A stretch of 64,000 nt of DNA from a virus: IMG/VR virus record IMGVR_UViG_3300020442_002030, positions 1 through 64,000 of that record. One strand, written 5' to 3'. Made by a program: the position numbers and the translations under genes. The notes under the pieces are model-generated. The model saw only the letters and a program-made list of their open reading frames with translations. It searched no databases and had not been told where the DNA came from. Positions 30,019-52,245 of this stretch are shown here, piece by piece (the stretch's first letter is position 1; every line of letters starts with the position of its first letter).

Positions 30019-30027
30019 ATATTTATA
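30019..30027 (+). promoter_or_regulatory. Late-promoter-like motif ATATTTATA, almost touching the start codon
   Basis: Perfect nine-base core, but only three bases separate it from the ATG at 30031; the other copies are 16-36 bases away. If the core is a -10/-7 element, transcription would begin at about the A of the ATG. Confidence 0.6.
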
Positions 30028-33000: not shown

Positions 33001-34344
33001 GATGGTATAGCATTAGGGGCAAGTAGTGTATTTAAAGTTACAGATAGTGGAAACATAACGGCAACAAATGCTAGTATAACAGGTTCTATTAATGCAGGAA
33101 ATGGTCAAATAGCTGGTTGGAATTTGGATGGTAATAAATTAGTTTCCAACAATGAATCAATGAGTTTAGATTCAGCAAACGAAAAAATTACGATTACCGA
33201 TAGATTAACAATACGAACAGGTGGATTATCTTCAACATCAGCAGGTTCGGTAAGTGTTACATCGCCAGCTCATACATTTAACTCCCAAACATTTAGTTCA
33301 CCAGCTGCATTTGATACAACAGAAAATGCTGATTCAAATGGTAGTGGAACAGTATCATTTACTTCAACAGGAACTTATAGTGTAACACTTACAAATCAAT
33401 TTGATGCTTCAAATACGTTTAGTGTAAGTAATGGATGGAGTGGTATGTTCCAATATAAAACTGTATTACAATTTAGAACAGCAGGTAGTGGTGGTGGTTC
33501 ATTGATAGGTGAGATAATTTTAGCTCAACAACAAGATTTTCCACCTGCTACTGGTGGTTCATATAATAAAGATTTAGATACATACACTTCTCAGCAATAT
33601 TTAAATATGACCCAAACAGGCACAATATATCTTTGGGTAGTTGAGAAGTATTTTTATCAACCTGCTGATACTTCTATTACTATAACAAAAAACTCATATA
33701 CAAAATCTACAGTAAGTGGAATTTCATTTGCAAAACAAAATACATTTTCAGAAGTTACTGAGTATGGATTTTTAGCAGCTAGAAGTGCTACAAACTTTGT
33801 TAAGTTAACCACATTAGAAAATCAAGTATTACAAGCTGAAGGTGAATCGATACTTAATGGAACAGTTAGAGTAGAAGATGATAACCAATATGATTTAGGA
33901 GACCCAAGTAATAGATGGGATGATGTATATGCAACCAATGCTACAATTCAAACATCTGATAGAAATGATAAAACTCACATTAGTGGTTCTGATTTAGGAT
34001 TAGATTTTATAAATGATTTAAGACCTGTAAAGTATAAATGGATTAGTGGAAGTAGATATCATTATGGATTAGTTGCTCAAGAAGTATCAGAATCGCTTCA
34101 ATCCTCTTCAATACATACTGATGATTTTGCAGGATATATTGAAAACGAAATATGGGAAAGTGGTAGTCACGAATGGACAATCGATTCAATAAATGAATAC
34201 GGATGGGATACTGGAAGTTTTACATATAGTAGACAATCATTAGGATTGAGATATTCAGAAATGATTTCACCAATGATTAAAGCAATCCAAGAGTTATCAG
34301 CAAAGGTGGTACAACTAGAAAATCAAATAAGCGGTTCTGAGTGA
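30031..34344 (+). CDS. Tail fibre with C-terminal intramolecular chaperone (peptidase S74)
   Basis: A 1437-residue fibre. Residues 1-~600 are beta-rich adhesin-like domains. Residues ~610-770 are Ala/Ser-rich with repeated NAVLSGSAF-like units, probably a trimeric coil. Residues ~775-960 hold two related repeats (GLYLGASNLGFYESGQWRTY and GLYLGSDKLGYYNNSEWKTY). The end is a chaperone-of-endosialidase domain with S1309-D-R-N-D-K and LRPVKYKWISGSRYHYGLVA. That domain helps the trimer fold, then cuts itself off before the Ser. It has its own promoter-like motif with an unusually close start, and is the probable receptor-binding fibre. Confidence 0.85.
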   Translation: MAVLKKYSPLQNIRNYKVFIEDGDMDSAYFNVTELEKTLTGGKNAFLFEGSPFLRKGSKVRFEALDVEGNTLYIEPGVQSGKTFKDGTSIVMAIHIYDDTPIGIGSLQIAAELETYIDERGIERKVPEEFRGRPNIRWTQTFKINPKLPNKTQVRFFKRPTFSVTEIEKPLLVKTEMTLNKSGSVIGIPEVPDTGSDFSTWTAPSQYRIKLEEGNKFTQSMEENTTLQIPSLGYSSSVLEVVNADEMLVRKPYLINNIVHEFQPVSYSLQFESVEDAVVTGSNVTASYAEIRLENLKTFTGDVARIKIFRKSRNDLGDFQVVQENKLDATELLRDFSVNDRTVINYGKLRRENIVSEEGDVYYTTSSGVEIHNDKLINSLEVKGNHSVESAGTIGEFEIVSGSEYSFKYNARYSGSGESVNTDTLRFLIVTSSNNSGNPTVTSQSIDLLSGSIDRNSAGLGNIQRIQKNFFAETTGKCQIRVEANTAASTGRFLFSRLSLKNAEESSYSPDEYTAIVDIPRKNPTEQFDFRVEFYDINNNFIPIKVEQSVPFTKGNQAIGLEASINVKNSGIADAGDILNVQGGVVQIASTNIQSSTIAGLGDPTNFSTELAAATSSLKIQTTNLQIATASLGADITSSLAAGAVSASNAAQSASLAEDKADTAIVGNQNAVLSGSAAASTAQSNAETFATTAANNATLSGSLSASIAITGNENAVLSGSAFATITGDNSVLSGSAFASDAVTSGSEFAANAALSASASGSVDPSTGLITKAVAPSSDGLYLGASNLGFYESGQWRTYMDDDGQFFLTGSNNNNYLRWNGTTLEIGGSIVLTNGSPGVDLTPLNDFTSSQDSINSNLNSETSSINSSLGNINAATSSYLGTSTQFDFGGNGFTLDPVSINGAGLYLGSDKLGYYNNSEWKTYMDNSGQFFLGGTSGNLTWDGTNLLINGTVTASAGYIGTPTDGFNINSDYIGNGKSSLTDSNDGVYIGTDGIALGASSVFKVTDSGNITATNASITGSINAGNGQIAGWNLDGNKLVSNNESMSLDSANEKITITDRLTIRTGGLSSTSAGSVSVTSPAHTFNSQTFSSPAAFDTTENADSNGSGTVSFTSTGTYSVTLTNQFDASNTFSVSNGWSGMFQYKTVLQFRTAGSGGGSLIGEIILAQQQDFPPATGGSYNKDLDTYTSQQYLNMTQTGTIYLWVVEKYFYQPADTSITITKNSYTKSTVSGISFAKQNTFSEVTEYGFLAARSATNFVKLTTLENQVLQAEGESILNGTVRVEDDNQYDLGDPSNRWDDVYATNATIQTSDRNDKTHISGSDLGLDFINDLRPVKYKWISGSRYHYGLVAQEVSESLQSSSIHTDDFAGYIENEIWESGSHEWTIDSINEYGWDTGSFTYSRQSLGLRYSEMISPMIKAIQELSAKVVQLENQISGSE

Positions 34345-35327
34345 AATTATTAGTAACAACTGGTTTCGGAAATATCATACAAGGTGGAGCTGATGTATGG
34401 ACAAATCATTTTATTGATTTAGTACTTCCACAACTTTCAGATGATTATTTTATCTTTGTAGATGGTAGAAAACCTGTTGGATTTGAAACATCTTTAACAA
34501 ATTATCATTTTCATTACGATAATCCTAAAAAATCAGAACAACTTTTAGAAGATTGTGAAGAAATCCACTTCTTACATGCGAATTATCACAAAAGAGAACA
34601 TCTTTGGAAACATAAAGATAAATGGGGTAATATATTTGTACATGCATATTTACCCGATATGTTAAAGTATGGTGATTCTACAAAACAATTTCAAACTAAC
34701 ATAGATACTAAAGCAGTTGATGATTTGATGAAGTATTGTAAACAAAGAATTTGGATAGGATTAACAGATTCACAATTATTTACAGATTATCCTGATAATA
34801 CCATAACAATTCCAAACTTTTATGAATTTAAAGAAGATTTGTTATTAGAAAAATTATCAGATTCTAAAATTGGATTTACTTCTCGTATTGAATCTCGTAA
34901 AAATGTTCATTATTTGGATAATCATAGAGGATTTGTTTTAAGTGGCAAATACGATTGGAAAAATATAGTAGAAACAAATCAGTATAACTTTAGTGGTATA
35001 AAATTTTATCAATGGGACTCTGAGATATTAGATTTATTTATGTGTAAAGATTGGAGTATCTCACATTCTTGCCACACCAATGAACCTTTTGGATATTCAA
35101 TCTTTCAAGCCGTTGATTATGGAAAACTTCCGATACTACATTCCGATTGGGGAGATGTAGATTACAAATATAGAGCATCATCAAAAGAAGAGTTTGATTC
35201 TATGGTAGAAATCATATGTAGAGATTCTTACGCAGAACTATTAGAAAATTGGATGAGATTATCTGAATGGATGCTTAAATACTCCAATAAATGGAAGTGG
35301 AGAGATGAGATAAAAAATCTATTTTAA
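34341..35327 (+). CDS. GT-B-type glycosyltransferase
   Basis: A 328-residue protein starting on GTG within a GTGA overlap with the fibre stop. The N-terminal GNIIQGGADVWTNHF matches the Gly-rich donor/acceptor loop of GT4-like enzymes. Residues ~175-190 have GFTSRIESRKNVHYLD, and near 240-265 NEPFGYSIFQAVDYGKLPIL corresponds to the E-x-F-G-x-x-x-x-E/Q region. The second Glu of the usual E-x7-E is replaced by Gln. Its coupling to the tail-fibre gene suggests it could modify the fibre itself, or merely opens the sugar cassette. Confidence 0.75.
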   Translation: MKLLVTTGFGNIIQGGADVWTNHFIDLVLPQLSDDYFIFVDGRKPVGFETSLTNYHFHYDNPKKSEQLLEDCEEIHFLHANYHKREHLWKHKDKWGNIFVHAYLPDMLKYGDSTKQFQTNIDTKAVDDLMKYCKQRIWIGLTDSQLFTDYPDNTITIPNFYEFKEDLLLEKLSDSKIGFTSRIESRKNVHYLDNHRGFVLSGKYDWKNIVETNQYNFSGIKFYQWDSEILDLFMCKDWSISHSCHTNEPFGYSIFQAVDYGKLPILHSDWGDVDYKYRASSKEEFDSMVEIICRDSYAELLENWMRLSEWMLKYSNKWKWRDEIKNLF

Positions 35328-35352
35328 TTTTTTCCGTTTTCTATATTTTTAT

Positions 35353-35361
35353 ATATTTATA
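35353..35361 (+). promoter_or_regulatory. Late-promoter-like motif ATATTTATA
   Basis: Core within TATATTTATA at 35352-35361 in the 57-base gap after the GT-B gene, 23 bases before the ATG at 35385. It appears to serve the whole 35385-52217 cassette, in which no further copy was seen. Confidence 0.65.
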
Positions 35362-35384
35362 TACAACACCATAATCTAAACCAA

Positions 35385-36164
35385 ATGTCTTTACTTAATT
35401 TAGGTTTAATAGAAAAATACATATCAAACAATCAAGTCAAAAAAAGGGATACGAATGGTAAACCTTTTACTGATATTGTACCTGTTCCATATAGATGGAC
35501 ACATGGAGCAACTGATTTACATTTAGGTGATGGTATGATTATATATTCTACCATACAAATGATGAGAGCAAAGGTATGTGTATGTTTAGGAAGTGGTGGT
35601 GGATTTATTCCTCGTATAATGACACAAGCGAGAGTAGATTTGCATGACCAAAAAATATTTACAGGTCTAAAACAGATGGAGTGGGGTGATTGTGGTACTA
35701 CATTCGTAGTTGATGCAGATAACGGAGTAGGAGGGTTTACTGATTGGACGGATAAACGTTCATTCTTTAGAAAAAACTTCGATTGTAGAGTTATCTTAGA
35801 TACCACCGAAAACGCATTTTATAACTTCTTTGTTAAGGAAGATATAAAGATAGATTACCTACACATAGATGCGGGTCATTCGTATGATGATGTTAAAAAT
35901 GATTTTACTCTTTACTCAAGTATCTTATCGGATTATGGTGTAATTTCAATCCACGATACAGATGAATCTTTTGAAAAAGAACTCATCGTAACAGAAGATG
36001 TAAAAGAAAAAAACCATCATGCTCCATTTGATGGACCTAATAAACTCATAAAAGAACTAAAAGAAAGTAACGAATGGGAACTTTTCAATTTCTTCAACAA
36101 CGGAGTGATGAAAGAAAAACCATCTACAACTGGGTTGACACTGATACAAAGATGCAGGATTTAA
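35385..36164 (+). CDS. SAM-dependent methyltransferase-like protein
   Basis: A 259-residue Rossmann-type protein. VCVCLGSGGGFIPRI supplies motif I; the internal CRVILDTTENAFYNFF and IDYLHIDAGHSYDDVKNDF (D-x-G-H) with YGVISIHDTD match the Methyltransf_24 pattern. The protein at 19952 has the same D/S-H and V-D-D/H-D features, so the two are probably distant relatives. It opens the sugar cassette behind its own promoter-like motif. Substrate unknown; sugar methylation is inferred from context. Confidence 0.65.
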   Translation: MSLLNLGLIEKYISNNQVKKRDTNGKPFTDIVPVPYRWTHGATDLHLGDGMIIYSTIQMMRAKVCVCLGSGGGFIPRIMTQARVDLHDQKIFTGLKQMEWGDCGTTFVVDADNGVGGFTDWTDKRSFFRKNFDCRVILDTTENAFYNFFVKEDIKIDYLHIDAGHSYDDVKNDFTLYSSILSDYGVISIHDTDESFEKELIVTEDVKEKNHHAPFDGPNKLIKELKESNEWELFNFFNNGVMKEKPSTTGLTLIQRCRI

Positions 36165-37012
36165 ACTTAGTAACTGTAGTTGGACATAACATCACTATGT
36201 TACCACATATGTTGGAATACTATCAGCAATTTGTGGAGAAAAAAAATATCTTTATCGTAGTTTATCGACAAGATGAAAACGATGGGATATTAGAACAAAT
36301 TGAAAACTTGGGATTGACTCCTTACAAAGTAGTAACCGAACCAAAGTTTCATTGGGAAAAAGTAACTGAACTTTATAATGAAGTAAAGATGACTAAACCA
36401 AACGATTGGTGGATTGTATCGGATGATGATGAAATTCAGATTTATCCAAAACCAATTGAAGAAATGATTGATGAATGTGAAGTAAAAGGATGGGAGTTTA
36501 TCACAGGTGGATTCTTGGATAGGATTGGAGAGGATGGGAGTTTTCCCATCGTAGATAGCGAAACTAATATATGGGAAGTATTTCCATATAGTGGTTTTTT
36601 TAGGTATCCACTTAGTGGAGCTTGTCCAAACAAAGTGTGTGTAATGAAAGGAAAGATTCAAATAACAAACGGACAGCATTATGCACACATTGATGGAAAA
36701 GATGTGTGGGGTAAAGAGGGTGTAGAACATCCACTTAGATATCCACCAGGTAGAGGTGAAGGATTTATACAAGTTCATCACTTCAAATGGGATTCAACTG
36801 TTTTAGAACGATTAAAAGAAGTTTCAGAAACAGAAGAAGATTACACTTTTTGGAAAGAATACAAAAAGATGTACAAAGCAATCGAAGTTTTCGATTGGAA
36901 AATTGATATTAATAATCCGTTATTCGGTTTAGTTAGAAATATACCGATTCAAAATGAACATTGGGATTATCAGTATTGGAATAGATTAACAAAAGGAATA
37001 TTAAAAATTTAA
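36152..37012 (+). CDS. GT-A-type glycosyltransferase-like protein
   Basis: A 286-residue protein. The ATG at 36152 gives a 13-base overlap with the upstream stop and is preferred to 36074, which would overlap by 91 bases. After VTVVGHNITMLPHMLEYY comes IFIVVYRQDENDGI, a Rossmann-like start, then WWIVSDDDEIQIYP, where the D-D-D/E cluster suits metal and sugar-nucleotide binding in GT-A enzymes. Later GWEFITGGFLDRIGEDG and an aromatic C-terminal half. Similar to the GT2-like family often found in phage and bacterial glycan clusters. Confidence 0.6.
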   Translation: MQDLNLVTVVGHNITMLPHMLEYYQQFVEKKNIFIVVYRQDENDGILEQIENLGLTPYKVVTEPKFHWEKVTELYNEVKMTKPNDWWIVSDDDEIQIYPKPIEEMIDECEVKGWEFITGGFLDRIGEDGSFPIVDSETNIWEVFPYSGFFRYPLSGACPNKVCVMKGKIQITNGQHYAHIDGKDVWGKEGVEHPLRYPPGRGEGFIQVHHFKWDSTVLERLKEVSETEEDYTFWKEYKKMYKAIEVFDWKIDINNPLFGLVRNIPIQNEHWDYQYWNRLTKGILKI

Positions 37013-37016
37013 AATT

Positions 37017-37241
37017 ATGGCAAAGAAAGCAGCAAAAGTAGAAGAAGCAAGTATCTCAGCTAATGGTGGAGGTTTTGACCCTATTTTAGAGGAAAGAAAA
37101 GTAAAAGCATTAGAAAAGATAGCTAACTCAGTAGATGCACTTACTTTATGGTTTGAAGAAATCGATAAAGAAGAATGGGGACCAAGAATGGAATGGTATT
37201 TATCGTTATGGAAAGATAAGTACATAGGTAAGGATGAATAA
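37017..37241 (+). CDS. Small hypothetical protein (74 aa)
   Basis: A 74-residue protein beginning with a Lys/Ala-rich MAKKAAKVEEASISANGGGF, then a helical ALEKIANSVDALTLWFEEID and a Trp-rich WGPRMEWYLSLWKDKY. It fits exactly between the two glycosyltransferases (4-base gap before, 8-base overlap after), which supports it being real. No family recognised. It might be an accessory protein to either neighbour. Confidence 0.6.
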   Translation: MAKKAAKVEEASISANGGGFDPILEERKVKALEKIANSVDALTLWFEEIDKEEWGPRMEWYLSLWKDKYIGKDE

Positions 37242-38658
37242 ATTAGGTATCATAGTACCTTACAGAAATCGATTCGAGCATCTTAAAAAATTCAAAAAAT
37301 CTATTATAGATTATTTGGATTCAAATTCTTATGAAAATTATGTTGTAATAATTGTAGAGCAAGATGATGCAAGATTATTCAATCGTGGAATGCTTTTAAA
37401 TATTGGATTTGAAGAAGCTGAAAAACAGGGTTGTGATTATGTAGTTTTTCACGATGTAGATATGTTACCGATTTATGTAAACTATTCATATCATAGTAAA
37501 CCTCTTCATTTAGCTACTAATTTTGTATTGGATGATGAAGAAAAAGAAAGAACAATCTTTGATGAATATTTTGGCGGAGTAACAATGTTTCCTGTTGATA
37601 CATTTAAAAAAATAGATGGTTACTCTAACAAATACTGGGGATGGGGTTATGAAGATGATGATTTACGATTTAGATGTGAAGAAAAAAATATACCTTTAAA
37701 AATTAAGAAAATTAAAAACTATAAACCGATTGGTAAATCTTTAAAGTTAAATGGAATAAACGCCTATGTAAAGGTAAAAAATACTATAGATTTTAGAAGT
37801 AGTTTTTCTATATTTATTTCTTTTTATCCAGACAAATTATATTTAAATCACAAAAAGAAATCAGATGAATTTACGGCATTTAGTATTCCTGGTTATGATT
37901 TAGCATTAGGTTACACATCGTTTTCAAGATATAATTTTTGCTTCTTTGATTCACAACTAAAACCATATTATGTTAATTCAACTATTAAAAAGAATCATAA
38001 AACAAATATGATGATAGTATTTAATTCAGTTGATAAAAAAGTAAAAATTTATCAAGATGGTGAACTGATTGGTGAAACAGAAGAATATAGAAAGTTATTT
38101 CCATATCACAAAGAAGAACATTATTATTTAGGAGTTGGTAATCCAATCAGAGAAGAAATACCTAATTTTTTTAAAGGATATATAAATTCATTTGCACAAT
38201 GGAACACACCTTTATCAGAAGATGAGGTAAAACATTATTCATCATTAGAAAGTGAGTTATTAAATCATAATTACAAAAATTATAATTCTTTGGAATATCT
38301 AAATGTATATTATGATGCAAATCATATAAAAGATTATAAACTGATAGATATTTCAGAAAATGGAAATGAAGGTGAAATTATTAATTGTGAAATAGTAGAT
38401 TTAGATATACCAAAATATACAAATGTAAAAATACCATATAGAAGAAAGGGTTTATTTAAATCATTAAAACATGATGAAAATGGATTCGATGGGCAGCAGT
38501 GGAAAGATAAATCTACAAGATATAATCAACTAAGATTTTTAAATGAAGTATCTAATCACCCATCTTTAATAAACAATGATGGATTATCTACATTAAAATA
38601 TCACACTTATGGTAAAAGTGAAGAAAATAATATAATACATATGAATGTTGGAATTTAA
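37234..38658 (+). CDS. Beta-1,4-galactosyltransferase-like (GT7) protein with inserted LamG-like domain, copy A
   Basis: A 474-residue protein with the motif series of animal-type beta-1,4-galactosyltransferases. PYRNR is at 9-13, the F-N-R-G/N-x-G-F equivalent is LFNRGMLLNIGFEEA, the metal motif is FHDVDML (D74-x-D76), then EYFGGVTMF and WGWGYEDDD (135-143). Residues ~170-385 are an inserted beta-sandwich of LamG type (FKGYINSFAQWNTPLSEDE). The GT7 C-terminal part resumes at ~410-474 with DGLSTLKYHTY (449 onward). The donor sugar is unknown. A paralogue lies two genes downstream. Confidence 0.82.
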   Translation: MNKLGIIVPYRNRFEHLKKFKKSIIDYLDSNSYENYVVIIVEQDDARLFNRGMLLNIGFEEAEKQGCDYVVFHDVDMLPIYVNYSYHSKPLHLATNFVLDDEEKERTIFDEYFGGVTMFPVDTFKKIDGYSNKYWGWGYEDDDLRFRCEEKNIPLKIKKIKNYKPIGKSLKLNGINAYVKVKNTIDFRSSFSIFISFYPDKLYLNHKKKSDEFTAFSIPGYDLALGYTSFSRYNFCFFDSQLKPYYVNSTIKKNHKTNMMIVFNSVDKKVKIYQDGELIGETEEYRKLFPYHKEEHYYLGVGNPIREEIPNFFKGYINSFAQWNTPLSEDEVKHYSSLESELLNHNYKNYNSLEYLNVYYDANHIKDYKLIDISENGNEGEIINCEIVDLDIPKYTNVKIPYRRKGLFKSLKHDENGFDGQQWKDKSTRYNQLRFLNEVSNHPSLINNDGLSTLKYHTYGKSEENNIIHMNVGI

Positions 38659-38667
38659 AATTAACTT

Positions 38668-39144
38668 ATGAAAGAACAAAAACAAATAGTAGGATTTACT
38701 GCAGGAAATTTTGATTTAATTCATCCGGGTTACGTTTATACGTTTGAAGCAGCTAAACAACATTGTGATAAATTCATAGTGTTTTTACATAGAGACCCAT
38801 CTGAACATAGAAAATCAAAATACAAACCTGTTATTCCTATACACGAAAGATATCGTACATTGATGGCTATAAGATACATCGATGAAGTTTATGTATATCA
38901 AACAGAAGAAGAACTCAGAGGATTAATAGAGTTTTTTAAACCCGATATAAGAATCTTAGGTGAAGATTATATTGGTAAATCATTTACAGGTGATGACTTA
39001 CCACCAAAGGTTGTATATACAACTCGAGCACATGGTTGGTCAACAACTAAGATGAAGGATATGATTGCTATGCAAACAATCAAACAAAATCCTGAAATAA
39101 AAGAAGCAGCAGAGTTTTTTGAAAGAAAAATGGAAATGGATTAA
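38668..39144 (+). CDS. Cytidylyltransferase-like protein (TagD/RfaE-type fold)
   Basis: A 158-residue nucleotidyltransferase. The N-terminal GFTAGNFDLIHPGYVYTFE corresponds to G-x-F-D-x-x-H-x-G-H, and the C-terminal HGWSTTKMKDM to the R-x-x-x-I-S-T-T motif. Family members make CDP-glycerol, ADP-heptose or similar. Odd points: the second His of HxGH is Tyr, and Ile of ISTT is Trp. Both could alter activity or specificity. It sits between the two GT7-like genes and overlaps the second by one base, so it may supply their activated substrate. Confidence 0.78.
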   Translation: MKEQKQIVGFTAGNFDLIHPGYVYTFEAAKQHCDKFIVFLHRDPSEHRKSKYKPVIPIHERYRTLMAIRYIDEVYVYQTEEELRGLIEFFKPDIRILGEDYIGKSFTGDDLPPKVVYTTRAHGWSTTKMKDMIAMQTIKQNPEIKEAAEFFERKMEMD

Positions 39145-40586
39145 TGAAGTTAGGAGTTTGTGTACCATATAGAAACAGAGAAGCTCATTTAAAAGAGTTT
39201 GTACCAAAAGTTGGAGCATATTTAGAATCCAAAGGTATAGATTATTGTATGTACTTTGCTCATCAAGTAGATGATAAGTTATTTAACAGAGGAGCAACGA
39301 AAAATGTAGCAGCTAAACATGCCTTTGAGGATGGATGTGATTACATTGTATGGCATGATATAGATATGATACCAGAAGAGGGAACTGATTACTCTTTTCC
39401 TGAAAAAACTCCGATTCATATAGCAACAAATATATCTCAAATGAATTACGAACTAAAATATCAAGAATATTTTGGTGGAGCAGTACTTTTTAACAAAGAA
39501 CAAGTTGAAAGAACCAATGGATACTCAAATGATTATTGGGATTGGGGTATGGAGGATGATGATTTGTTTTGGAGATGTTATTTGGAAGGATATGCTAATG
39601 TAAGAGAAATAGAAATTGGTATAGAAAACTTTTTAAGGTTTAATGGTAGTACTTCAAAGGTAACAATACCAGTCGATAGGGGTATAGCACATCTAACATC
39701 CAAATCACATACAGTTTCAGTATTGGTAAAAGCAAATCAGCAAGAAGAAAAAGTTCCTATATGGTTGGTTGGTGATTGGGATAGAAGATTTTGTGAATAT
39801 CCAATAATTAGAAGAGCTGGTTACGATTGGGGATTGAGTTATAACAATAGTAGAGCATATACATCACTACTATGGAATCACAAAAAAGAAGCTCTATATC
39901 AATGGATGAAAAGATACGAAAATTATTGGAGTTGGATAACCCTATCAGTAGATGTTGAAAATAATAAAATACATTTTTACTTAAATGGAAATGAATCAGA
40001 TGCAAGACATGGACATGGAACTCATTCACCACTTAGTTTTGATGGTAAACTAAAAAGATATGGTTCTGTACCATTTACATTAGGACACACAACTTCAGTT
40101 GGAGAAAGAGATGCTAGTAGGTTCTTTAGAGGTGATATAGCAAAAGTAATGTTATGGGATAGAAAGTTAGAAGCTGATGAAATCAAACAATTAACAAATA
40201 ATATTCCATCAGATGGATTAAAACTCCACTACGAATTTAAAAATGGTGAAGCAAAAGATATTAGTGGTAATGATTATGATGGTGAAGTGAATACAATAAC
40301 TACTGGAACGGAATTAATTAAATTATCACAACCACCAATCCCACATCGTAGAGCTGGTAGAATGTTTTGTTTACCACACAAAGATGAGGGATTAATATCA
40401 GATGATAAAGGACAAGATAGGTGGGCTAAGGGAGAAACTACCGCAAGAAATGAAAGAAGATACGTTTTAGAAATGCAGCAAGGTAAGTGGGATTATAAAT
40501 CTGATGGTATTAAACAATTAAAATATGAATTGGTTAGTATAGAGGAAATAAACCCGAATGCAAAAATGATAAATGTAAAGTTTTAA
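39144..40586 (+). CDS. Beta-1,4-galactosyltransferase-like (GT7) protein with inserted LamG-like domain, copy B
   Basis: A 480-residue paralogue of 37234: PYRNR (8-12), LFNRGATKNVAAKHA, WHDIDMIP (D72-x-D74), EYFGGAVLF and WDWGMEDDD (132-140). The insert at ~165-370 is a clearer LamG domain (FYLNGNESDARHGHG, then GDIAKVMLWDRKLEADEI). The GT7 tail returns with HRRAGRMFCLPHKDE and DGIKQLKYEL (454 onward). The same nested architecture in both copies means the insertion predates the duplication. The lectin-like domain may bind the acceptor glycan. Late or cassette expression is expected. Confidence 0.82.
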   Translation: MKLGVCVPYRNREAHLKEFVPKVGAYLESKGIDYCMYFAHQVDDKLFNRGATKNVAAKHAFEDGCDYIVWHDIDMIPEEGTDYSFPEKTPIHIATNISQMNYELKYQEYFGGAVLFNKEQVERTNGYSNDYWDWGMEDDDLFWRCYLEGYANVREIEIGIENFLRFNGSTSKVTIPVDRGIAHLTSKSHTVSVLVKANQQEEKVPIWLVGDWDRRFCEYPIIRRAGYDWGLSYNNSRAYTSLLWNHKKEALYQWMKRYENYWSWITLSVDVENNKIHFYLNGNESDARHGHGTHSPLSFDGKLKRYGSVPFTLGHTTSVGERDASRFFRGDIAKVMLWDRKLEADEIKQLTNNIPSDGLKLHYEFKNGEAKDISGNDYDGEVNTITTGTELIKLSQPPIPHRRAGRMFCLPHKDEGLISDDKGQDRWAKGETTARNERRYVLEMQQGKWDYKSDGIKQLKYELVSIEEINPNAKMINVKF

Positions 40587-40599
40587 TATATATTAATAT

Positions 40600-44712: not shown

Positions 44713-45337
44713 TTTAGATTATCACGAAGATAGATGGGTTGATGGTAACTGGTCAGCTCAAGACTTGATAGATTTTGAAGATGATATTATAAAACATTGG
44801 GAAAATGGAGAAATCAGAGGACCAATACACCTATCAAATGGTAATGAAAAACAACTAATAAAAATATTTGAAAAAGTGGGAGTAGATGATTGGGTATTCT
44901 CAACTTGGAGGTCTCACTACCACGCTTTGTTACATGGAGTAGAACCATCTGTATTAAAACAGAAGATATTAGATGGTAAATCAATTACAATAGTAGATAA
45001 AAATTCAAAATTTTACTCATCAGCTATTGTGACTGGTACTTTACCGATTGCACTTGGGGTTGCTAAATCAATTAAGTACAATGGTGGTAATGATAAGGTT
45101 TGGGTTTTCTTAGGAGATATGGCTTTTGAGAGTGGAATCTTCTATGAAGTTCACAAATATGCAAGAAATTATGATTTACCACTTCATTTTGTGGTAGAAG
45201 ATAATGGTGTATCAACAAACACACCAACATTAGATACATGGAGTGGTATTCAGAGAGAAATACCAGAAGATGTAATTTATTATAAGTATGAATCAAAGTA
45301 TCCGCATTATGGTACTGGTAAATGGGTAGTATTTTAA
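44696..45337 (+). CDS. Thiamine-diphosphate enzyme, E1-alpha-like (PP-type) subunit, short
   Basis: A 213-residue protein resembling the TPP-binding half of 2-oxoacid dehydrogenase E1 or transketolase. STWRSHYHALLHG, AIVTGTLPIALGVAKSI, and the TPP motif from GDMAFESG (about residue 140) to EDNGVSTNTPT (Asn near 169). The usual GDG is GDM. E1-alpha subunits are normally 320-370 residues, so this is a reduced form. The matching pyrimidine-binding half is at 48016, three genes downstream. Together they may act on a keto-sugar, which is inference. TAATG overlap with the next gene. Confidence 0.78.
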   Translation: MEKILNLDYHEDRWVDGNWSAQDLIDFEDDIIKHWENGEIRGPIHLSNGNEKQLIKIFEKVGVDDWVFSTWRSHYHALLHGVEPSVLKQKILDGKSITIVDKNSKFYSSAIVTGTLPIALGVAKSIKYNGGNDKVWVFLGDMAFESGIFYEVHKYARNYDLPLHFVVEDNGVSTNTPTLDTWSGIQREIPEDVIYYKYESKYPHYGTGKWVVF

Positions 45338-46290
45338 TGACAACAAAAGGGAGAATATTAGTTACAGGTTGTAGTGGTTTAGTTGGAACTCATTTAGTTC
45401 ACAAACTATTAGATTATGGATACTCAGTTGTAGGTGTTGATTTAAAATATTCAAAACAACTACCAGATGATGATAAATTTATATTTCAAAATGTAGATTT
45501 AAGAGATTCAGATGAAGTTAATGTATTATTTGACCATTATGAGTTTCATGGAGTCATAAATTCGTTTGGAATCAAAGGTTCACCTGTTAGAGCAAAAGAA
45601 AGACCTATTGATTTCTTAGAACCATCTATAAAAGTAAACACAAACATTATTGATAACTCTGTAAAGTATAATTGTTGGTTAGTATTTATGAGTTCGGTTG
45701 GTGTTTACGAACCATCTGAAGTATTTGTAGAAGATACTGTTTGGAAAACACTTCCATCACCAAATGATTGGTTTCCATCTTGGAGTAAAAGAATACCTGA
45801 ACTTTATTTAGAAGCTTATAAAGTACAAGAAGGTTACAATAGATATACAATCGTAAGACCAGCAAATATTTTTGGTGAATACGATAACTTTGGTGAAGGT
45901 GCAACTGTAATCGGAGCAACTTGTAGAAAGGTTTACGAATCAGATGGTGAAATTGAAGCATGGGGAGATGGAACACCAACGAGAGATTTCATATACGCTG
46001 GAGATGTTGCAGATGGTTGTATTAAATGTTACGAAGATAAGTTACACATAACAACTAACTTAGGTAGTGGTGAAGAAATATCAATCAAAAGAATGATTGA
46101 AACAGTTTCTAAAGTTAGTGAGAAAGAAATAAAAATAAATTGGGATACTTCAAAACCAAATGGTGATATGAGAAGAAGAATGAGTACTAAAATACAAAAG
46201 GAATATAATCTATTACCAAAATTAGGATTTGAAGAGGGAATACGAAGAACATATAAGCATTATGAAAACATTCGATATAGTCATAGGTAA
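45337..46290 (+). CDS. NAD-dependent nucleotide-sugar SDR enzyme, active-site Tyr not evident
   Basis: A 317-residue extended SDR: VTGCSGLVGTHL, VDLKYSKQL, FMSSVGVYEPSEVF, IVRPANIFGEYDNFG, EAWGDGTPTRDFIYAGDVA and LGSGEEISIKRMI. The expected YxxxK reads L-E-A-Y-K in ELYLEAYKVQEG, so the Tyr four residues before Lys is replaced. The enzyme may use a shifted Tyr or have another role. The start is the ATG at 45337, on the stop codon of the TPP gene (TAATG), rather than five codons upstream. Confidence 0.75.
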   Translation: MTTKGRILVTGCSGLVGTHLVHKLLDYGYSVVGVDLKYSKQLPDDDKFIFQNVDLRDSDEVNVLFDHYEFHGVINSFGIKGSPVRAKERPIDFLEPSIKVNTNIIDNSVKYNCWLVFMSSVGVYEPSEVFVEDTVWKTLPSPNDWFPSWSKRIPELYLEAYKVQEGYNRYTIVRPANIFGEYDNFGEGATVIGATCRKVYESDGEIEAWGDGTPTRDFIYAGDVADGCIKCYEDKLHITTNLGSGEEISIKRMIETVSKVSEKEIKINWDTSKPNGDMRRRMSTKIQKEYNLLPKLGFEEGIRRTYKHYENIRYSHR

Positions 46291-47032
46291 TGGGTGTTCA
46301 TTTACACAAGGAGGTGGATTAAATAATTATGAAATTCACAAATTCCTTACAGGAGTAGATGAAAAAGATATGACCAAATTAGATGCTTTTATGTTTAAAA
46401 ATTCATATCCAGCTTTTTTAGGTAAATTACTAAATTGTAAATGGTATAATAACTCTTTAAGTTGTGCATCAAACGATTTAATAATTCAAAGAGGAATGGA
46501 TATAGTAAAACAATTTAGAAATAAAAAAATATTGATTATAAACCAATTATCAATACCAGCTAGGTTGGGTGTAAGAAAGGGAAACAAATATATAAGTTTT
46601 AATAATACAGAAGGACAATTAGTTTATGATGTATCAAATGGAAATTTAAAAAACCCTAAATATAGAGACCATTCAAATTATTCAAAAAATGAGATAGATG
46701 ATTTTTATAAAAAATATCTGTTAGATGTCTATGATGTATCAGCTCATTGGAAAGGAATCCGATATATGATGGAACTATATAATGGATGGTGTGAAAAAAA
46801 TAATGTTTTAAATTACTGGTTGTGTTATACTGATTACGAAGAAGTTCGTAATATAGATAGAATGATAAAACTACAACCAGAATCGGAACATACATATAAA
46901 CAATCAATATGTGCTTGGTCTGATGAAAAAAGATATCAATTAAGACATATAAAAAATATTCCTGAGGATGATTCTCATTTATCAATCGAAGGACATAAAG
47001 AATTAGCAAATATTATATACAATACAATATGA
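46262..47032 (+). CDS. SGNH/GDSL-like hydrolase or acyltransferase, member 3
   Basis: A 256-residue SGNH-fold protein. IVIGNGCSFTQGGGLN carries nucleophile Ser13, SLSCASNDLIIQRG the Asn block, and PEDDSHLSIEGHKELANI the Asp/His block. I prefer ATG 46262 (overlap of 29 bases with the SDR gene) over 46229, because it puts the nucleophile block at the same distance from the N-terminus as in the paralogues. It sits between two SDR genes, supporting a sugar ester substrate. No signal peptide is seen, so it acts in the cytoplasm. Confidence 0.7.
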   Translation: MKTFDIVIGNGCSFTQGGGLNNYEIHKFLTGVDEKDMTKLDAFMFKNSYPAFLGKLLNCKWYNNSLSCASNDLIIQRGMDIVKQFRNKKILIINQLSIPARLGVRKGNKYISFNNTEGQLVYDVSNGNLKNPKYRDHSNYSKNEIDDFYKKYLLDVYDVSAHWKGIRYMMELYNGWCEKNNVLNYWLCYTDYEEVRNIDRMIKLQPESEHTYKQSICAWSDEKRYQLRHIKNIPEDDSHLSIEGHKELANIIYNTI

Positions 47033-48012
47033 AAAAGGAAGATAAAATTTTAGTTACTGGAGCGGCGGGATTTATAGGTTCTCGTTTAATCAAAATGTTA
47101 TACGAAAATGGTTACAAGAATCTACGGACAACATCATATAGTAGAACTCTTAGAGAGTTGTATGATGGAGTGGAATTCATAAAGGGAAACTTACAAGATA
47201 GAACCTTTTGCGAGAGAGTTTCAAAAGATGTAGATGTGGTATTCCATTGTGCAGCTAATACAAGCAACGCACTGGACACGAAGGTAAATCCCCTTCTCCA
47301 CGTAACTCCTAATGTAGAGATGAATGTAAACCTTATGGAACAGAGTTGGAGAAACAAAGTTCGTAAGTTTATGTTTATTTCTTCAAATACAACTTATCCA
47401 GATGTAGGTGATGAGTATTGTACAGAAGATATGAATGTACAAACACCAAACATCTATCCTGTATATAAAGCAGTAGGTTGGATGAAACGATATGGAGAAA
47501 CACTTTGTGATTTCTTTTCAAATCAAATACACAATCCGATGCAGTGTATAATCATCAGACCTTCAAATGCATTCGGTCCGAATGATAAATACGATTTTGA
47601 AAAGTGTCACGTTACACCTGCTAATATTAGAAAAGTAGCAGATAATTTGAATCCAATTCCACTATGGGGTGATGGTACTGAAGTAAGAGATGTAATTCAC
47701 GTTGATGATATGGTAAGTGGTTTTATGAAAGTAGCTGAAGAAGTTGATACTTATGATATCTACAATGTATGTTATGGTGAGGGGCATACTGTTATGGAAG
47801 TATTAGAACTTATCAAAGAATTAGAGGGGAACGACAATCCAATCGAATTCGTAAACAACAAAGCCCCTATGATTCCTAAAAGATTATTATCAAATGAGAA
47901 ACTGAGAAAGTTGGGATGGAAACCTAAATACGATTTAAGAAGTGGATTAAAAGATGCACTTGAGTGGTACAAAGAACACCGAGATGAATATGACCCAAAT
48001 TCAAAACCATAA
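47029..48012 (+). CDS. NAD-dependent nucleotide-sugar epimerase/reductase (extended SDR)
   Basis: A 327-residue extended SDR: VTGAAGFIGSRL, GNLQDRTFCERV, FHCAANTSNALD, FISSNTTYPDVGDEY, and the YxxxK pair in IYPVYKAVGWMKRYGE. IIIRPSNAFGPNDKYD and LWGDGTEVRDVIHVDDM complete the family pattern, close to GDP-fucose-synthase or UDP-sugar epimerase types. ATGA overlap with the SGNH gene; three bases before the TPP partner gene. The exact sugar is unknown. Confidence 0.8.
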   Translation: MKKEDKILVTGAAGFIGSRLIKMLYENGYKNLRTTSYSRTLRELYDGVEFIKGNLQDRTFCERVSKDVDVVFHCAANTSNALDTKVNPLLHVTPNVEMNVNLMEQSWRNKVRKFMFISSNTTYPDVGDEYCTEDMNVQTPNIYPVYKAVGWMKRYGETLCDFFSNQIHNPMQCIIIRPSNAFGPNDKYDFEKCHVTPANIRKVADNLNPIPLWGDGTEVRDVIHVDDMVSGFMKVAEEVDTYDIYNVCYGEGHTVMEVLELIKELEGNDNPIEFVNNKAPMIPKRLLSNEKLRKLGWKPKYDLRSGLKDALEWYKEHRDEYDPNSKP

Positions 48013-48015
48013 GTT

Positions 48016-48564
48016 ATGAGCAAACCAAAATTTACACCATATGTAGATGCACTTACAGAAGCAATGAAACTTTGTATGGATAACCCATCTACAATTTTTA
48101 TAGGACAACAAATTGTTTATTATGGAAACCCAATGAGTAAAACAATTGAGGGATTGCCAAAAGAAAGAATGATTGAAACACCCGTTATGGAAGAAACACA
48201 AATGGGTATGAGTATGGGATTGGCTATGGCAGGTCATCAAGTGGTTACCTTTTATCCAAGATGGGATTTCTTAATTCTTGCATGTAATCAATTGGTAAAT
48301 CATTTGGATAAATTAGAGGCAATGTCTGATGGTGAATGGAAACCAAATGTGATTGTAAGAGTTGGTAAAGGTTCAGATAAACCACTGGATCCTGGTCATC
48401 AACATAAAGCAGATTACACCGAACCATTTAAACAAATATTAACTAATGCAACTGTGAACGAATTAAAAAATCCAAATGATATTTTACCTGCTTATAAAAA
48501 AGCACTAAGTGAAGGTGGAATACATATTTTAGTTGAATATCCTGAGTTGTATTATGCAGAATAA
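48016..48564 (+). CDS. Thiamine-diphosphate enzyme, E1-beta-like (pyrimidine-binding) subunit, short
   Basis: A 182-residue protein matching the N-terminal pyrimidine-binding domain of E1-beta/transketolase. YVDALTEAMKLCMDNPST, METPVMEETQMGMSMGLAMA-like text with the conserved activating Glu, and YPRWDFLILACNQLVNHLDK. E1-beta is normally ~325 residues; here the C-terminal domain is missing. With 44696 it makes a complete pair of cofactor half-sites. The two are separated by an SDR, an SGNH and another SDR gene. It overlaps the next gene by 11 bases. Confidence 0.78.
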   Translation: MSKPKFTPYVDALTEAMKLCMDNPSTIFIGQQIVYYGNPMSKTIEGLPKERMIETPVMEETQMGMSMGLAMAGHQVVTFYPRWDFLILACNQLVNHLDKLEAMSDGEWKPNVIVRVGKGSDKPLDPGHQHKADYTEPFKQILTNATVNELKNPNDILPAYKKALSEGGIHILVEYPELYYAE

Positions 48565-49888
48565 ATATTTTAGTAAATTTTTAGTAACTTACGATTTTTT
48601 ATTAGATGGTGATGTACAACCAAATGCTACAGATTTTTCTGATGATAGAAAAGTTTGGCAAGAAGTTTTACATGGGAGTATATCTTCACTAAATTATATA
48701 CCAACTTATTTAACGGATTTAGATGAGTATAAAAATTATAAATTATTATATTTCATAAATCCATACTCATCTTTTGATAAAGGATTTGGTGACTTCAATA
48801 AAGATTTTTTGTTAGGTTCTATACCAAACCCAACCTTAGATAAATTAATAAGTGATGATAGATTCTACATAGTTATTTACTATCCAAATGAAGGGTGGGT
48901 TGATTACCAAAGCTTAAAACATATTCATTCTTGGTTTAAAAATGAAGGAATTGATTTAAATAGATTGATTCTAATTAATTCAAATTTTAAAATAAAAGAA
49001 TGGTATTCTGAATTTGTAGATAAAGTAAGAATGAAATCCAGAATAAATGTTGCTCCACATCATTGGGCACTGGATGATGTACCAACCGAATATATTAGTG
49101 CAGTAGGTGATGAGAATCAATCGATTAATATGGAATATAAAATAGAAAATAAAAAATATGATTTTAATTTTCTAAACAGAGCTAATAGAAAACATAGATT
49201 TCTTATGATATTAAATTTATACAAAGAAAATTTGGTAAAAAATAATTTAGTTTCATATGACTTAAACTTTGATGATAGTGGAAATGATGAAGAAGAAATT
49301 TATGAAAAAAGAAGATGTGATATACAGGACTTTCACAATTATTATGATGATGATTCAGAATATGAATATATGCTCTCATTGTACAATGAGTTATATGAAA
49401 CGTTACCAAAAAAAGTTGTAGATTTTGAAGATAAGAAAAGTATTTTCGGATTACAAATGGAAACTGACATTCCGTACAAAGATTCTATGTTTACCATAGT
49501 TGGAGAATCATACTTTACAGAAAATCAAAACATAGGTTATTTATCAGAAAAGGTATTTAAACCAATAGCACATCATCACCCTTTTATAATAATTGGTGTT
49601 CCTGGTTTGTTAAAATATTTAAGAGAGTTAGGATTTAAAACATTTGAACCATATATAAATGAATCATACGATTTAGAATATGATTATATTAAAAGGTTTT
49701 TTTTAATTTTGGATGAAATAAAAAGATTATGTAATTTATCAGATGCCGAAAAGATAGAATGGATGAATGGAGTTTTACCAATTATAGAACATAATTATGA
49801 AAACCTAAAAAAAATAGAAAAAGAAAATCAAAACATAGATGTTATTGATAAGATAGCAAATGTAGTTTTTAAAAAGAATGTATCGTGA
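48554..49888 (+). CDS. Putative glycosyltransferase, SEK-motif family member 3
   Basis: A 444-residue member of the four-paralogue family. NFLNRANRKHRFLMILNLYK gives the NR..HR motif. The signature is LSEKVFKPIAHHHPFIIIGV (S331-E332-K333), followed by LRELGFKTFEPYINESYD. The start is ATG 48554 (11-base overlap) rather than 48533. Members 3 and 4 are tandem and clearly similar to each other across the C-terminal ~120 residues, including a final IEHNYENL/IKFNWNHM segment. A GT-B-type sugar transferase is inferred, not shown. Confidence 0.55.
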   Translation: MQNKYFSKFLVTYDFLLDGDVQPNATDFSDDRKVWQEVLHGSISSLNYIPTYLTDLDEYKNYKLLYFINPYSSFDKGFGDFNKDFLLGSIPNPTLDKLISDDRFYIVIYYPNEGWVDYQSLKHIHSWFKNEGIDLNRLILINSNFKIKEWYSEFVDKVRMKSRINVAPHHWALDDVPTEYISAVGDENQSINMEYKIENKKYDFNFLNRANRKHRFLMILNLYKENLVKNNLVSYDLNFDDSGNDEEEIYEKRRCDIQDFHNYYDDDSEYEYMLSLYNELYETLPKKVVDFEDKKSIFGLQMETDIPYKDSMFTIVGESYFTENQNIGYLSEKVFKPIAHHHPFIIIGVPGLLKYLRELGFKTFEPYINESYDLEYDYIKRFFLILDEIKRLCNLSDAEKIEWMNGVLPIIEHNYENLKKIEKENQNIDVIDKIANVVFKKNVS

Positions 49889-51321
49889 AACACTATCAAG
49901 TATTTGACACTTATTACAATGGATGTGAACTTCCAAATGGCACTGATTTTGGAAAGTTAAATGGGCATTATCTTGAGCATAGAGATATGTGTATTAGAAA
50001 TGAAGATTGGGGTGATGCGTATGATATTAATTCTTGGTATATTAAAGAAACGGGAAGAGTATTTCCTGTTTCATTACATGAGGATGAACGATTACAACAC
50101 ATTTTAGATTTAAAAAATATACCAATATGTGAAGTAGATAATGTAGAGGATGGTGTTTTTATATATCAATTAAATATGATGGGAGGGGAAGGATTATCTT
50201 TTCCTGATGATATTAATGAAAAATCAATATTACATTTTATTTCTGAAAAAGCATTGGAGTATATAAAAAATGGAAAATTTAAATTTGTAATAAATTATTT
50301 TGTTGAAGGTGTTTTTGAATATCATCATTTTAATAATCTACATAAACATTTAGAAGAATTAGAAATACCATCTGAAAAAGTATATTTTATTTTCGGAGGT
50401 TATAATACAGATAATTGGTATGAGGCTTTTTGTAAAAGATACAATATTAAAAATAAAATAAATATTGTTGAATTAAGTTGGGTTCGATTGCACAAATTTG
50501 AAGAATTTTTTCATATGGCTAGAGATGTGAATAAAAACAAATTTTTGAACAATGAATATGTTGTAGAAAAAAAGAAGTATGATTTTTTATGTTACAATAG
50601 AAGATTGAGATTACATAGACAATTATTTTTAGCATACTTAAAAAGATATAATTTATTGGATAATAATTTGGTAGGTTATGATTATACATTTTCAGAAAAT
50701 AAACATTTAGTAAATAGTTTTGATAGTTTTAAACATCACGATATTTGGCCATATGCTAGATTTTTAAAAAATGAGTTTAATTATTTATGGAATGAAAATC
50801 CAAAACAAATTGTTGATGTAGAAGATGTTAGCAACATTATAGGGGGAACTATTCAATCGGAAAGAAAAGAACCATACCAAAATACAATGTTTTCGGTTGT
50901 TACTGAAACATCTTTACGAAGTACCCAATATTATTTATCAGAAAAGGTATTTAAACCAATAGGACAAAAACACCCATTTGTTGTTATTGGAAGTCATTTA
51001 ACTTTACAAGAATTAAAACGATGGGGATTCAAAACATTTGAACCATATATAAATGAATCATATGACAATGAACCAAATCACTTTAGAAGATTAGAAATGG
51101 TTTTACAAGAAACAAAAAGGTTATGCAGTTTATCAGATGAAGAAAAAATACAATTCCAAAAAAACGTTTTACCCATTATTAAATTTAATTGGAATCATAT
51201 GATTGATTTATATGATAGTAATTACGAATGGTTAGAAGAAAAGATGAAAGAATTAGGTTATGAATTTGAACATAAAGAATTTATTTCAAAACATCCAGTT
51301 AGAGATATAAAGATTATTTAA
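49885..51321 (+). CDS. Putative glycosyltransferase, SEK-motif family member 4
   Basis: A 478-residue protein starting on GTG in a GTGA overlap. FLCYNRRLRLHRQLFLAYLK (NR..HR motif), then LSEKVFKPIGQKHPFVVIGS (S352-E353-K354) and GFKTFEPYINESYDNE, nearly identical to member 3 in this stretch. The N-terminal third differs, which fits a conserved donor-binding half with a variable acceptor half. It is followed by SGNH member 4, as member 1 is followed by SGNH member 1. Confidence 0.55.
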   Translation: MKHYQVFDTYYNGCELPNGTDFGKLNGHYLEHRDMCIRNEDWGDAYDINSWYIKETGRVFPVSLHEDERLQHILDLKNIPICEVDNVEDGVFIYQLNMMGGEGLSFPDDINEKSILHFISEKALEYIKNGKFKFVINYFVEGVFEYHHFNNLHKHLEELEIPSEKVYFIFGGYNTDNWYEAFCKRYNIKNKINIVELSWVRLHKFEEFFHMARDVNKNKFLNNEYVVEKKKYDFLCYNRRLRLHRQLFLAYLKRYNLLDNNLVGYDYTFSENKHLVNSFDSFKHHDIWPYARFLKNEFNYLWNENPKQIVDVEDVSNIIGGTIQSERKEPYQNTMFSVVTETSLRSTQYYLSEKVFKPIGQKHPFVVIGSHLTLQELKRWGFKTFEPYINESYDNEPNHFRRLEMVLQETKRLCSLSDEEKIQFQKNVLPIIKFNWNHMIDLYDSNYEWLEEKMKELGYEFEHKEFISKHPVRDIKII

Positions 51322-51325
51322 ATAT

Positions 51326-52117
51326 ATGGAATTAGAAAATGAAAAAACAATATATTTTGTAGGATGTAGTTACACATGGGGAGCTGGTTTAGAGTTTGAA
51401 TATTATAATGCACATAAAGGTTGGAGTATTGATAAAATAAATAAAGAAAATGATATGTCCGTAAATAGATTAGAAAATGGAACATATCATGCAGCAGAAT
51501 ATAGAAGAAAAAATAGATTTGGTAATTTAGTAGCTAAACACTTTAATGTAAATCACGAAGTTTTAAATGTTGGAAATGGTGGTAATAATGGATACACAAT
51601 ACATTTAATACAATCATCAACAATTAGTGTTGCAAAAATTCTTATTGTTCAGTTGAGTTTTTATGGTAGAAGTTGGACATTTCAAAATCAAAAAAAATTT
51701 AATACAGAAAAGTACATAAATAGTGGTAACACTTATATTACAGATAATTTTTCCAAAGAAGATTTACTAAACGAGTGCCATACTCAAATATGGAATATTT
51801 ACAAAGAAGCTTATTTCGAAAGAAAACAAAAAAATAAAGACCATCCTCAAATTTATTTCATAGCTTGGCATAAAGAATTTGGAGAAGTTTTGAAAAATAA
51901 ATTTTCAAATCATTTTATTCCAATACATATAGATGGGATAGATTACAATTCATTTGAAGATACATCTTTAGATTTTAATAATCCCAATATAAAACATAAA
52001 TATAATATGAGATTATGTGATATTTTAGATGGTTGTCCTGATACCCATTTAAGTTCTATAGGACATAAAATAGTTGCGGATTCAATTATAAAAAAAATAA
52101 AAAATGAATATATTTAA
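51326..52117 (+). CDS. SGNH/GDSL-like hydrolase or acyltransferase, member 4
   Basis: A 263-residue SGNH-fold protein: IYFVGCSYTWGAGLEF (nucleophile Ser15), NVGNGGNNGYTIHLIQ (Gly/Asn block) and GCPDTHLSSIGHKIVAD (Asp-x-His block). Like member 2 it has a basic central region rich in Lys and aromatic residues. It ends the sugar cassette and overlaps a 37-residue gene. Role as for the other members: sugar acyl ester cleavage or transfer, inferred. Confidence 0.7.
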   Translation: MELENEKTIYFVGCSYTWGAGLEFEYYNAHKGWSIDKINKENDMSVNRLENGTYHAAEYRRKNRFGNLVAKHFNVNHEVLNVGNGGNNGYTIHLIQSSTISVAKILIVQLSFYGRSWTFQNQKKFNTEKYINSGNTYITDNFSKEDLLNECHTQIWNIYKEAYFERKQKNKDHPQIYFIAWHKEFGEVLKNKFSNHFIPIHIDGIDYNSFEDTSLDFNNPNIKHKYNMRLCDILDGCPDTHLSSIGHKIVADSIIKKIKNEYI

Positions 52118-52236: not shown

Positions 52237-52245
52237 ATATTTATA
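52237..52245 (+). promoter_or_regulatory. Late-promoter-like motif ATATTTATA
   Basis: Core within TATATTTATA at 52236-52245, 18 bases before the ATG at 52264; separates the sugar cassette from the next gene. Confidence 0.65.

Follow-up and report, generated by a model that had tools for sequence, protein, structure and literature searches.

A locus of sugar genes lies in a 64,000-base stretch of viral DNA (the window: 64,000 of the 64,851 bases of IMG/VR virus record IMGVR_UViG_3300020442_002030), and it is a conserved set that recurs in dozens of related viruses rather than a one-off island. We propose, at somewhat less than an even chance, that it encodes a late cytosolic pathway by which large aquatic T4-type phages make a C2-branched nucleoside diphosphate (NDP) deoxysugar, decorate it, and transfer it, probably to virion proteins. 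The record is probably a fragment of a larger virus genome. The window's terminase gene and its portal gene (T4 gp20 type) place the virus in the T4 superfamily; when portal proteins are compared, Microcystis phage Mel-JY01 (49%) and Flavobacterium phage immuto (47%) come closest among isolates.

An initial annotation had marked out about twenty consecutive + strand genes directly after the tail-fibre gene and, indeed, twenty + strand open reading frames (ORFs) occupy 34341-52117, the first of them (GTB) overlapping the fibre gene by 4 bases. They are listed here with their promoter motifs; fractions of 45 count dereplicated viral loci chosen by TPP-alpha (parent contigs up to 288 kb), whose 10 kb flanks limit the counts for genes far from TPP-alpha.

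34341..35327, + strand: GTB, GT4-like GT-B glycosyltransferase; invariant E-P-F-G-Y and R/K motif in the alignment
35354..35361, + strand: TATTTATA, late-promoter-like motif; next copy at 52238
35385..36164, + strand: MT2, methyltransferase (Methyltransf_24); Pfam E 3e-9; 23/45 loci
36074..37012, + strand: GTA, GT2-like GT-A glycosyltransferase; Glyco_tranf_2_4 E 2e-4, under cut-off; 26/45 loci
37017..37241, + strand: hyp74, 74 amino acids, no family; 54-92% identity in 25/45 loci, place kept
37234..38658, + strand: GT7a, GT7 plus LamG (Pfam), variable slot; 29/45 loci
38668..39144, + strand: CTT, cytidylyltransferase-like (HldE-C / G3P-CT type) nucleotidyltransferase; PF01467 E 8e-15; 10/45 loci
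39144..40586, + strand: GT7b, GT7 (DID, WDWGMEDDD) plus LamG (Pfam), conserved, invariant catalytic motifs; 29/45 loci
40600..42033, + strand: rSAM, twitch-domain radical SAM protein; NF033640 351.8 bits, cut-off 170; 39/45 loci
42024..42761, + strand: h245, variable slot; no family match
42758..43153, + strand: h131, variable slot; no family match
43134..44123, + strand: SDR1, NDP-sugar epimerase/reductase; Epimerase E 2e-32, invariant Y150/K154; 42/45 loci
44107..44712, + strand: RmlC, dTDP-4-keto-sugar 3,5-epimerase family; PF00908 E 2e-35; 45/45 loci
44696..45337, + strand: TPP-alpha, short E1-alpha-type thiamine pyrophosphate (TPP) subunit; E1_dh E 4e-14, phrog_34187 E 1e-49, GD...N invariant
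45322..46290, + strand: SDR2, two exchangeable alleles in the lineage; 44/45 loci
46229..47032, + strand: SGNH3, variable slot; SGNH alignment; 6/45 loci
47029..48012, + strand: SDR3, conserved NDP-sugar short-chain dehydrogenase/reductase (SDR); Epimerase E 7e-45; 41/45 loci
48016..48564, + strand: TPP-beta, E1-beta-type, lacking the C-terminal domain; PRK09212 E 7e-13, phrog_34187 E 4e-25, invariant E59/E60; 42/45 loci
48533..49888, + strand: SEK3, variable slot; SEK alignment; predicted family fold GT-B-like
49885..51321, + strand: SEK4, variable slot; model pLDDT (predicted local distance difference test) 81; 28 viral fold matches at E <= 0.001
51326..52117, + strand: SGNH4, variable slot; model pLDDT 81; GDSL folds
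52238..52245, + strand: TATTTATA, at the end of the unit, ahead of the NadR-like gene

That such a set could make and activate an uncommon sugar, transfer it, and acylate it, as first suggested, is well supported. Family scans back most of the original labels (methyltransferase, two GT7-LamG proteins, nucleotidyltransferase, radical SAM, RmlC, three SDRs, and the split TPP enzyme); the GT-A label has a scan match that falls under the Pfam cut-off, and the GT-B label of the first gene has no family model, only a GT4-like EPFGY...A.D.GK motif. The SGNH proteins also lack a family model, and their label is carried by an invariant Ser and His and a GDSL-like predicted fold. For SGNH4, S15 and H241 are invariant in the alignment, the Ser nucleophile and Asp-x-His block are present, and the model resembles GDSL proteins, with the acyltransferase SsfX3 on top (probability 1.00, E 1.6e-3), so that nucleophile, block, and modelled fold are all those of an SGNH/GDSL esterase-acyltransferase. 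The SEK proteins, again without a family model, have a divergent fold: the top PDB matches of the SEK4 model are mainly GT-B enzymes at E values of at least 0.01, and a label no stronger than “GT-B-like” is therefore appropriate. Compared with viral structures, the SEK fold matches glycosyltransferases (GTs) at E about 1e-4, and many phage proteins, nearly all unnamed but one bearing the name of a UDP-glucose dehydrogenase domain; a SEK profile run against PDB sequences returned nothing.

The initial annotation had recommended a synteny search, and parts of the cassette do recur in those 45 loci. A TPP-alpha scan gave 136 viral relatives, of which the best 80 (65-91% identity) were kept, and five larger records (103-287 kb) preserve one gene order, (tail genes)-SegE-DnaG-SbcCD-(RmlB-UGD)-fibre-GTB-MT2-GTA-hyp74-GT7a-GT7b-rSAM-SDR1-RmlC-TPPa-SDR2-SDR3-TPPb, within the region covered in each, though RmlB or UGD is missing from some. 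GTB comes next after the fibre in G001, G003, G004, G015, and G017, and in G015 the NadR, terminase, and portal genes come after the run. No such cassette flanks the NadR relatives at 76% and about 50%, some of which have a fibre close by; together with the order kept elsewhere, this makes the module optional but stable. Catalytic residues, in alignments of 21-61 sequences per enzyme family, are kept across up to 61 homologues, so chance ORFs are unlikely. The idea that all of this is neutral cargo, “stuffer” DNA acquired for headful packaging, was raised earlier for cyanophage LPS (lipopolysaccharide) genes (PMC3037559) and gains something from the close relatives that lack the cassette, but those conserved residues and an order kept across diverged genomes make it highly improbable.

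A recent host-derived island is disfavoured, since the close TPP-alpha homologues in genome contigs are two contigs only, both from metagenome-assembled genomes (MAGs), and one of these (L166) holds the whole phage cassette. The other, L167, has it in part; the MAGs in question are of Pelagibacterales and Flavobacteriales, and both contigs probably come from phages. A search of 395 Bacteroidota genomes gave no further TPP-alpha relative at E <= 1e-18 in the 394 others. GT7b and MT2 found no match among 50,697 phage records. Few products of the locus are better conserved than the small protein hyp74 (up to 99% in G017), which keeps its position between GTA and GT7a. In the radical SAM protein (40600-42033), Cys34, 53, 95, and 98 are conserved in addition to CxxxCxxC, possibly as a second iron-sulphur site.

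The extent first given, 34341-52117, proved too narrow, because a series of genes of these classes starts already at 19952, with DnaG and an SbcCD fusion interspersed and the 1437-amino-acid tail fibre at its end:

19952..20626, + strand: methyltransferase (Methyltransf_24-like, weak); Pfam E 3e-5, just under cut-off
21548..22630, + strand: SEK1, SEK-family protein; ISEKTLKPI motif, tblastn relatives in other loci
22627..23388, + strand: SGNH1, SGNH-type protein; GCSF motif, SGNH alignment
23385..24485, + strand: SEK2, SEK-family protein; TSEKIFKP motif, relatives in other loci
27609..28295, + strand: SGNH2, SGNH-type protein; motif, SGNH alignment
28292..29173, + strand: RmlB-like dTDP-glucose 4,6-dehydratase; STDEVYG, TIGR01181 290.6 bits, E 1e-86, under the equivalog cut-off of 365
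29170..30003, + strand: short nucleotide-sugar dehydrogenase, UGD-like; TIGR03026 205.8 bits, above cut-off, two UGD Pfam domains
30020..30027, + strand: TATTTATA, late-promoter-like motif ahead of the fibre gene
30031..34344, + strand: tail fibre, 1437 amino acids; PHROG 7121 tail fiber, E 6e-20

Orthologues of RmlB in G017, G001, and G015 are 98, 76, and 68% identical. The UGD homologue has just 277 amino acids, without a matched C-terminal UDP-binding domain, and is 64-81% conserved in G001 and G017. Two assignments were set aside: a UDP-xylose pathway (UGD plus decarboxylase) is ruled out, the second SDR being RmlB-like and not UXS, and SDR1 is not favoured as a 4,6-dehydratase, having NTNS where RmlB has STDE. 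The SbcCD fusion (24475-27609) joins SbcD (phosphoesterase) and SbcC (ATPase) in one 1044-amino-acid protein between tail and fibre genes. Beyond the unit, the NadR-like protein (52264-55593) has 1109 amino acids; its relatives keep the N- and C-terminal parts, and the spacer stretches vary in length.

What, then, would the sugar be? The answer turns on the TPP pair. Both halves match the E1-alpha and E1-beta subunits of pyruvate dehydrogenase (PDH) type, with the TPP motif and catalytic Glu invariant in the alignments. An E2 acyltransferase (PF00198) appeared in 0 of 20 sampled genomes (controls positive in 10 of 14), which places the E1 pair outside any phage-encoded dehydrogenase complex. 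Separate E1-alpha/E1-beta-like subunits with TPP motif and catalytic Glu, no E2, and linkage to 4-keto-deoxysugar genes (RmlB is present in the window and in three sampled contigs) are also the pattern of the alphaKADH2 enzymes. The pathways of paulomycin, avilamycin, and kibdelomycin use two-subunit E1-like enzymes for which the addition of a pyruvate-derived C2 branch to a deoxysugar has been proposed or shown, in partnership with a 4,6-dehydratase, a 3,5-epimerase, a methyltransferase, and a ketoreductase (PMC4802897, PMC12247030, PMC4753412); the sugars of avilamycin and paulomycin so formed are octoses. The phage tool set is the same as theirs, so a branched-chain sugar is our best guess for the product, a guess by analogy that we hold at about even odds.

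The pathway might run as follows. A host NDP-sugar would be converted to an NDP-4-keto-6-deoxy sugar, in this phage through its own RmlB, and RmlC would epimerise it; the split E1-type pair would then add a two-carbon unit, probably from pyruvate, at the keto carbon to give the branched-chain sugar, which the SDRs would reduce or epimerise and the methyltransferase and SGNH proteins would decorate. GT-B, GT-A, GT7-LamG, and SEK enzymes, working in the cytosol, would then attach it to virion proteins, most likely the fibre or other late tail proteins from the same promoter class, and exchangeable GT, SGNH, and SDR2 slots would diversify the outer sugars. What was computed is the gene families, their conservation and order, where the promoters lie, the swapping of slots, and the absence of flippase, E2, and PF02397 from 20 sampled contigs; which sugar is made, in what order the enzymes act, what accepts the sugar, and what the phage gains (a change in adsorption or protection of the particle) we infer.

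Several points weigh against this proposal. Close RmlB orthologues occur in just three of the 20 sampled contigs, so other carriers would need a 4-keto sugar from the host, and the cyanophage homologues that the TPP proteins resemble (29-44% identity) have no assigned function. The glycan, the product, and the virion as its site are predictions, and the contigs are mostly fragments. Host transport machinery, moreover, could supply functions that the phage lacks. It might also be that the sugar pathway is real and the TPP pair performs, for example, a transketolase-like or decarboxylase step that makes an acyl or aldehyde donor, leaving the sugar unbranched. Both subunits are short, and the cyanophage homologues are annotated “transketolase central region,” as this explanation would have it; we still think it somewhat unlikely, for the similarity is to PDH-type E1-alpha/E1-beta, and every locus sampled shows the link with RmlC.

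The question of where a sugar would go, branched or not, is informed by the promoters. The initial annotation saw one promoter motif (35353) ahead of the run, and the motif is real (35354-35361), although it stands after the first gene, GTB. There are 12 + strand copies of TATTTATA in the window, 11 of them within the 2.6% that is intergenic (binomial p about 4e-17), where shuffled intergenic DNA would be expected to hold 0.45. Most lie 24-44 bases ahead of start codons. Copies precede the fibre (30020), MT2 (35354), and the NadR-like gene (52238), and there is none between 35361 and 52238, inside the cassette. A longer sense-strand motif, ATATTTATAT (at 315, 2800, 15976, 17970, 19276, 30020, 35354, 52238, 55619, 58615, 60839, and 62134), includes the reverse complement of the T4 late consensus TATAAATA; TATAAATA itself, looked for as a late promoter of T4 type, was not found on the sense strand, which carries the reverse complement TATTTATA. 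ORFs of immuto, Mel-JY01, and L104 likewise have the motif upstream, and it is retained ahead of MT2 in L104, L174, and L176, with the exact copy missing there in some relatives. Structural genes and cassette thus have a promoter motif in common, and position and motif together fit late, virion-linked expression; the simplest reading is that a single late-class transcript would start at 35354, with GTB read from the fibre promoter. Gene ends, which were said to overlap throughout, do so at 13 of 19 junctions and not at the other six; 18 of 34 overlap in the remainder of the window, so overlap is not distinctive of the cassette.

Hydropathy shows no membrane helix in any cassette protein, though it does in the neighbour protein at 56303-57019. 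A flippase (PF01943) was found in 0 of 20 genomes (controls positive in 13 of 14), as was an initiating transferase of the PF02397 type (9 of 14), the PF00953 type lying outside the search; the flippase and PF02397-type initiating glycosylphosphotransferase of Wzx-dependent O-antigen or capsule synthesis are, that is, both lacking from the 20. Taken with the promoter class, these absences speak for virion proteins glycosylated in the cytosol rather than for envelope remodelling, and they fall short of proof. The enzymes may instead act on host LPS or capsule during infection, altering it or putting another in its place so that other phages cannot superinfect, as has been suggested for cyanophage LPS clusters. 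Large phage sugar clusters are usually so read (PMC7824862, PMC3037559), the variable GT slots look like serotype conversion, and host machinery might be borrowed; besides the missing export functions and helices, however, a structural-gene promoter class would give the surface hardly any time to change before lysis, and we regard host-surface remodelling as unlikely. Glycosylation of phage DNA (hypermodified bases) rather than protein we judge very unlikely. The SEK fold is weakly similar to DNA glucosyltransferases such as T4 AGT, and 9 of 20 genomes have PF00303 proteins, candidates for a dCMP/dUMP hydroxymethylase that would provide a modifiable base, but the scores of these resemble ordinary thymidylate synthase, and they turn up also in G018, which has no cassette in its NadR flank; the locus, moreover, sits among tail genes, and multi-step decorated sugars and lectin-fused GTs would be excessive for bases.

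If virion proteins are the acceptor, their decorations may vary, for the GT7a, lectin (h245, where “lectin-like” is our guess), SEK, SGNH, and SDR2 slots are exchanged between closely related phages. Over 53.6-63.4 kb of the window, L007 matches it at 98% identity, but upstream of 52134 it has only scattered 68-78% patches, the break falling 17 bases past the SGNH4 stop. In G017, GT7a (42%), h245 (37%), h131 (27%), and SDR2 (41%) stand amid genes at 86-99% identity, and the neighbours of GT7a reach 90% or more. The SDR2 of L008 is 42% identical to that of the window and 97% to those of L111 and L115, while the RmlC and TPP-beta of L111/L115 are just 72-75% identical to those of L008, a clear case of allele exchange; the SDR1 value for L008, a mis-assignment at the edge of the locus, was left out of account. 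Extra DNA lies between TPP-alpha and SDR2 in 50 of 50 loci with the divergent SDR2 class and 9 of 25 in the window's class (kinship uncontrolled), and beside the divergent SDR2, it usually holds a SEK gene; the TPP-alpha-selected loci contain 124 distinct SEK variants. SDR2 itself has an odd active-site segment (WFPSWSK / KYAGWAK), with a Tyr/Phe four residues ahead of the usual spacing to the conserved Lys, shifted by one.

Phage sugar cassettes are already known as a kind; this locus, its TPP chemistry, and its slot swapping look new, and a literature search turned up no phage branched-chain sugar. Clusters in cyanophages and jumbo phages have an uncertain role (PMC3037559, PMC7824862). Those of the T4-type cyanophages P-SSM2, S-SSM7, S-SM2, and P-TIM68 also have about 20 consecutive NDP-sugar and GT genes, and SDRs, a nucleotidyltransferase, and GTs in a T4-type phage are likewise found here. 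S-SM2 and P-TIM68, however, carry a fused homologue of TPP-alpha and TPP-beta (29-44% identity) in place of split subunits; the cyanophage clusters lie near hli, phoH, and tRNAs and include a PfkB sugar kinase and phosphoheptose isomerase, none of which the window scans found, and they lack the fibre-to-terminase position, which the present set has, together with RmlC, GT7-LamG, and SEK slots. AviB1/AviB2, Plm8/Plm9, and KbDH (alphaKADH2) share with it an E1-alpha/E1-beta-like pair beside 4,6-dehydratase, 3,5-epimerase, SDR, and methyltransferase genes, but they are known from antibiotic producers, whereas the phage subunits are short, form their own phage lineage, and are likened by gene content. 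The near-autonomous virion glycosylation of chloroviruses and mimiviruses resembles it in virus-encoded sugar nucleotide synthesis and GTs, and giant-virus glycans have variable, methylated, or acetylated parts (PMC9614988); their hosts are eukaryotic and their glycans determined experimentally, whereas the phage locus is known from its genes. Moraphages (200-307 kb) are also aquatic and have structural genes of T4 type; Bacteroidota hosts are predicted for them, their core includes four glycosyltransferase groups, and they may, likened by description, be the same lineage; the parts of that report consulted describe no sugar pathway (PMC12619734). Mycobacteriophage, as cited there, bear glycans on capsid and tail-tube proteins, with no comparable pathway seen in the same parts (PMC12619734).

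Phage sugar clusters have been known since the cyanophage genomes and may act on the host, on the particle, or on nothing; here is a conserved locus, tied to the fibre and the structural promoter class and without export genes, that points to one testable chemistry. Our boldest suggestion, an unlikely one as we ourselves grade it, is that this is the first virus-encoded C2-branched deoxysugar pathway, its product attached to the phage's own tails, with exchange of SDR2, GT, and acyl alleles creating particle “glycotypes” analogous to O-serotypes. Should the main proposal be right, large aquatic phages would wear a rare sugar whose decorations are exchangeable, with consequences for adsorption and for phage recombination, and compact enzymes that form C-C bonds on sugars would become available.

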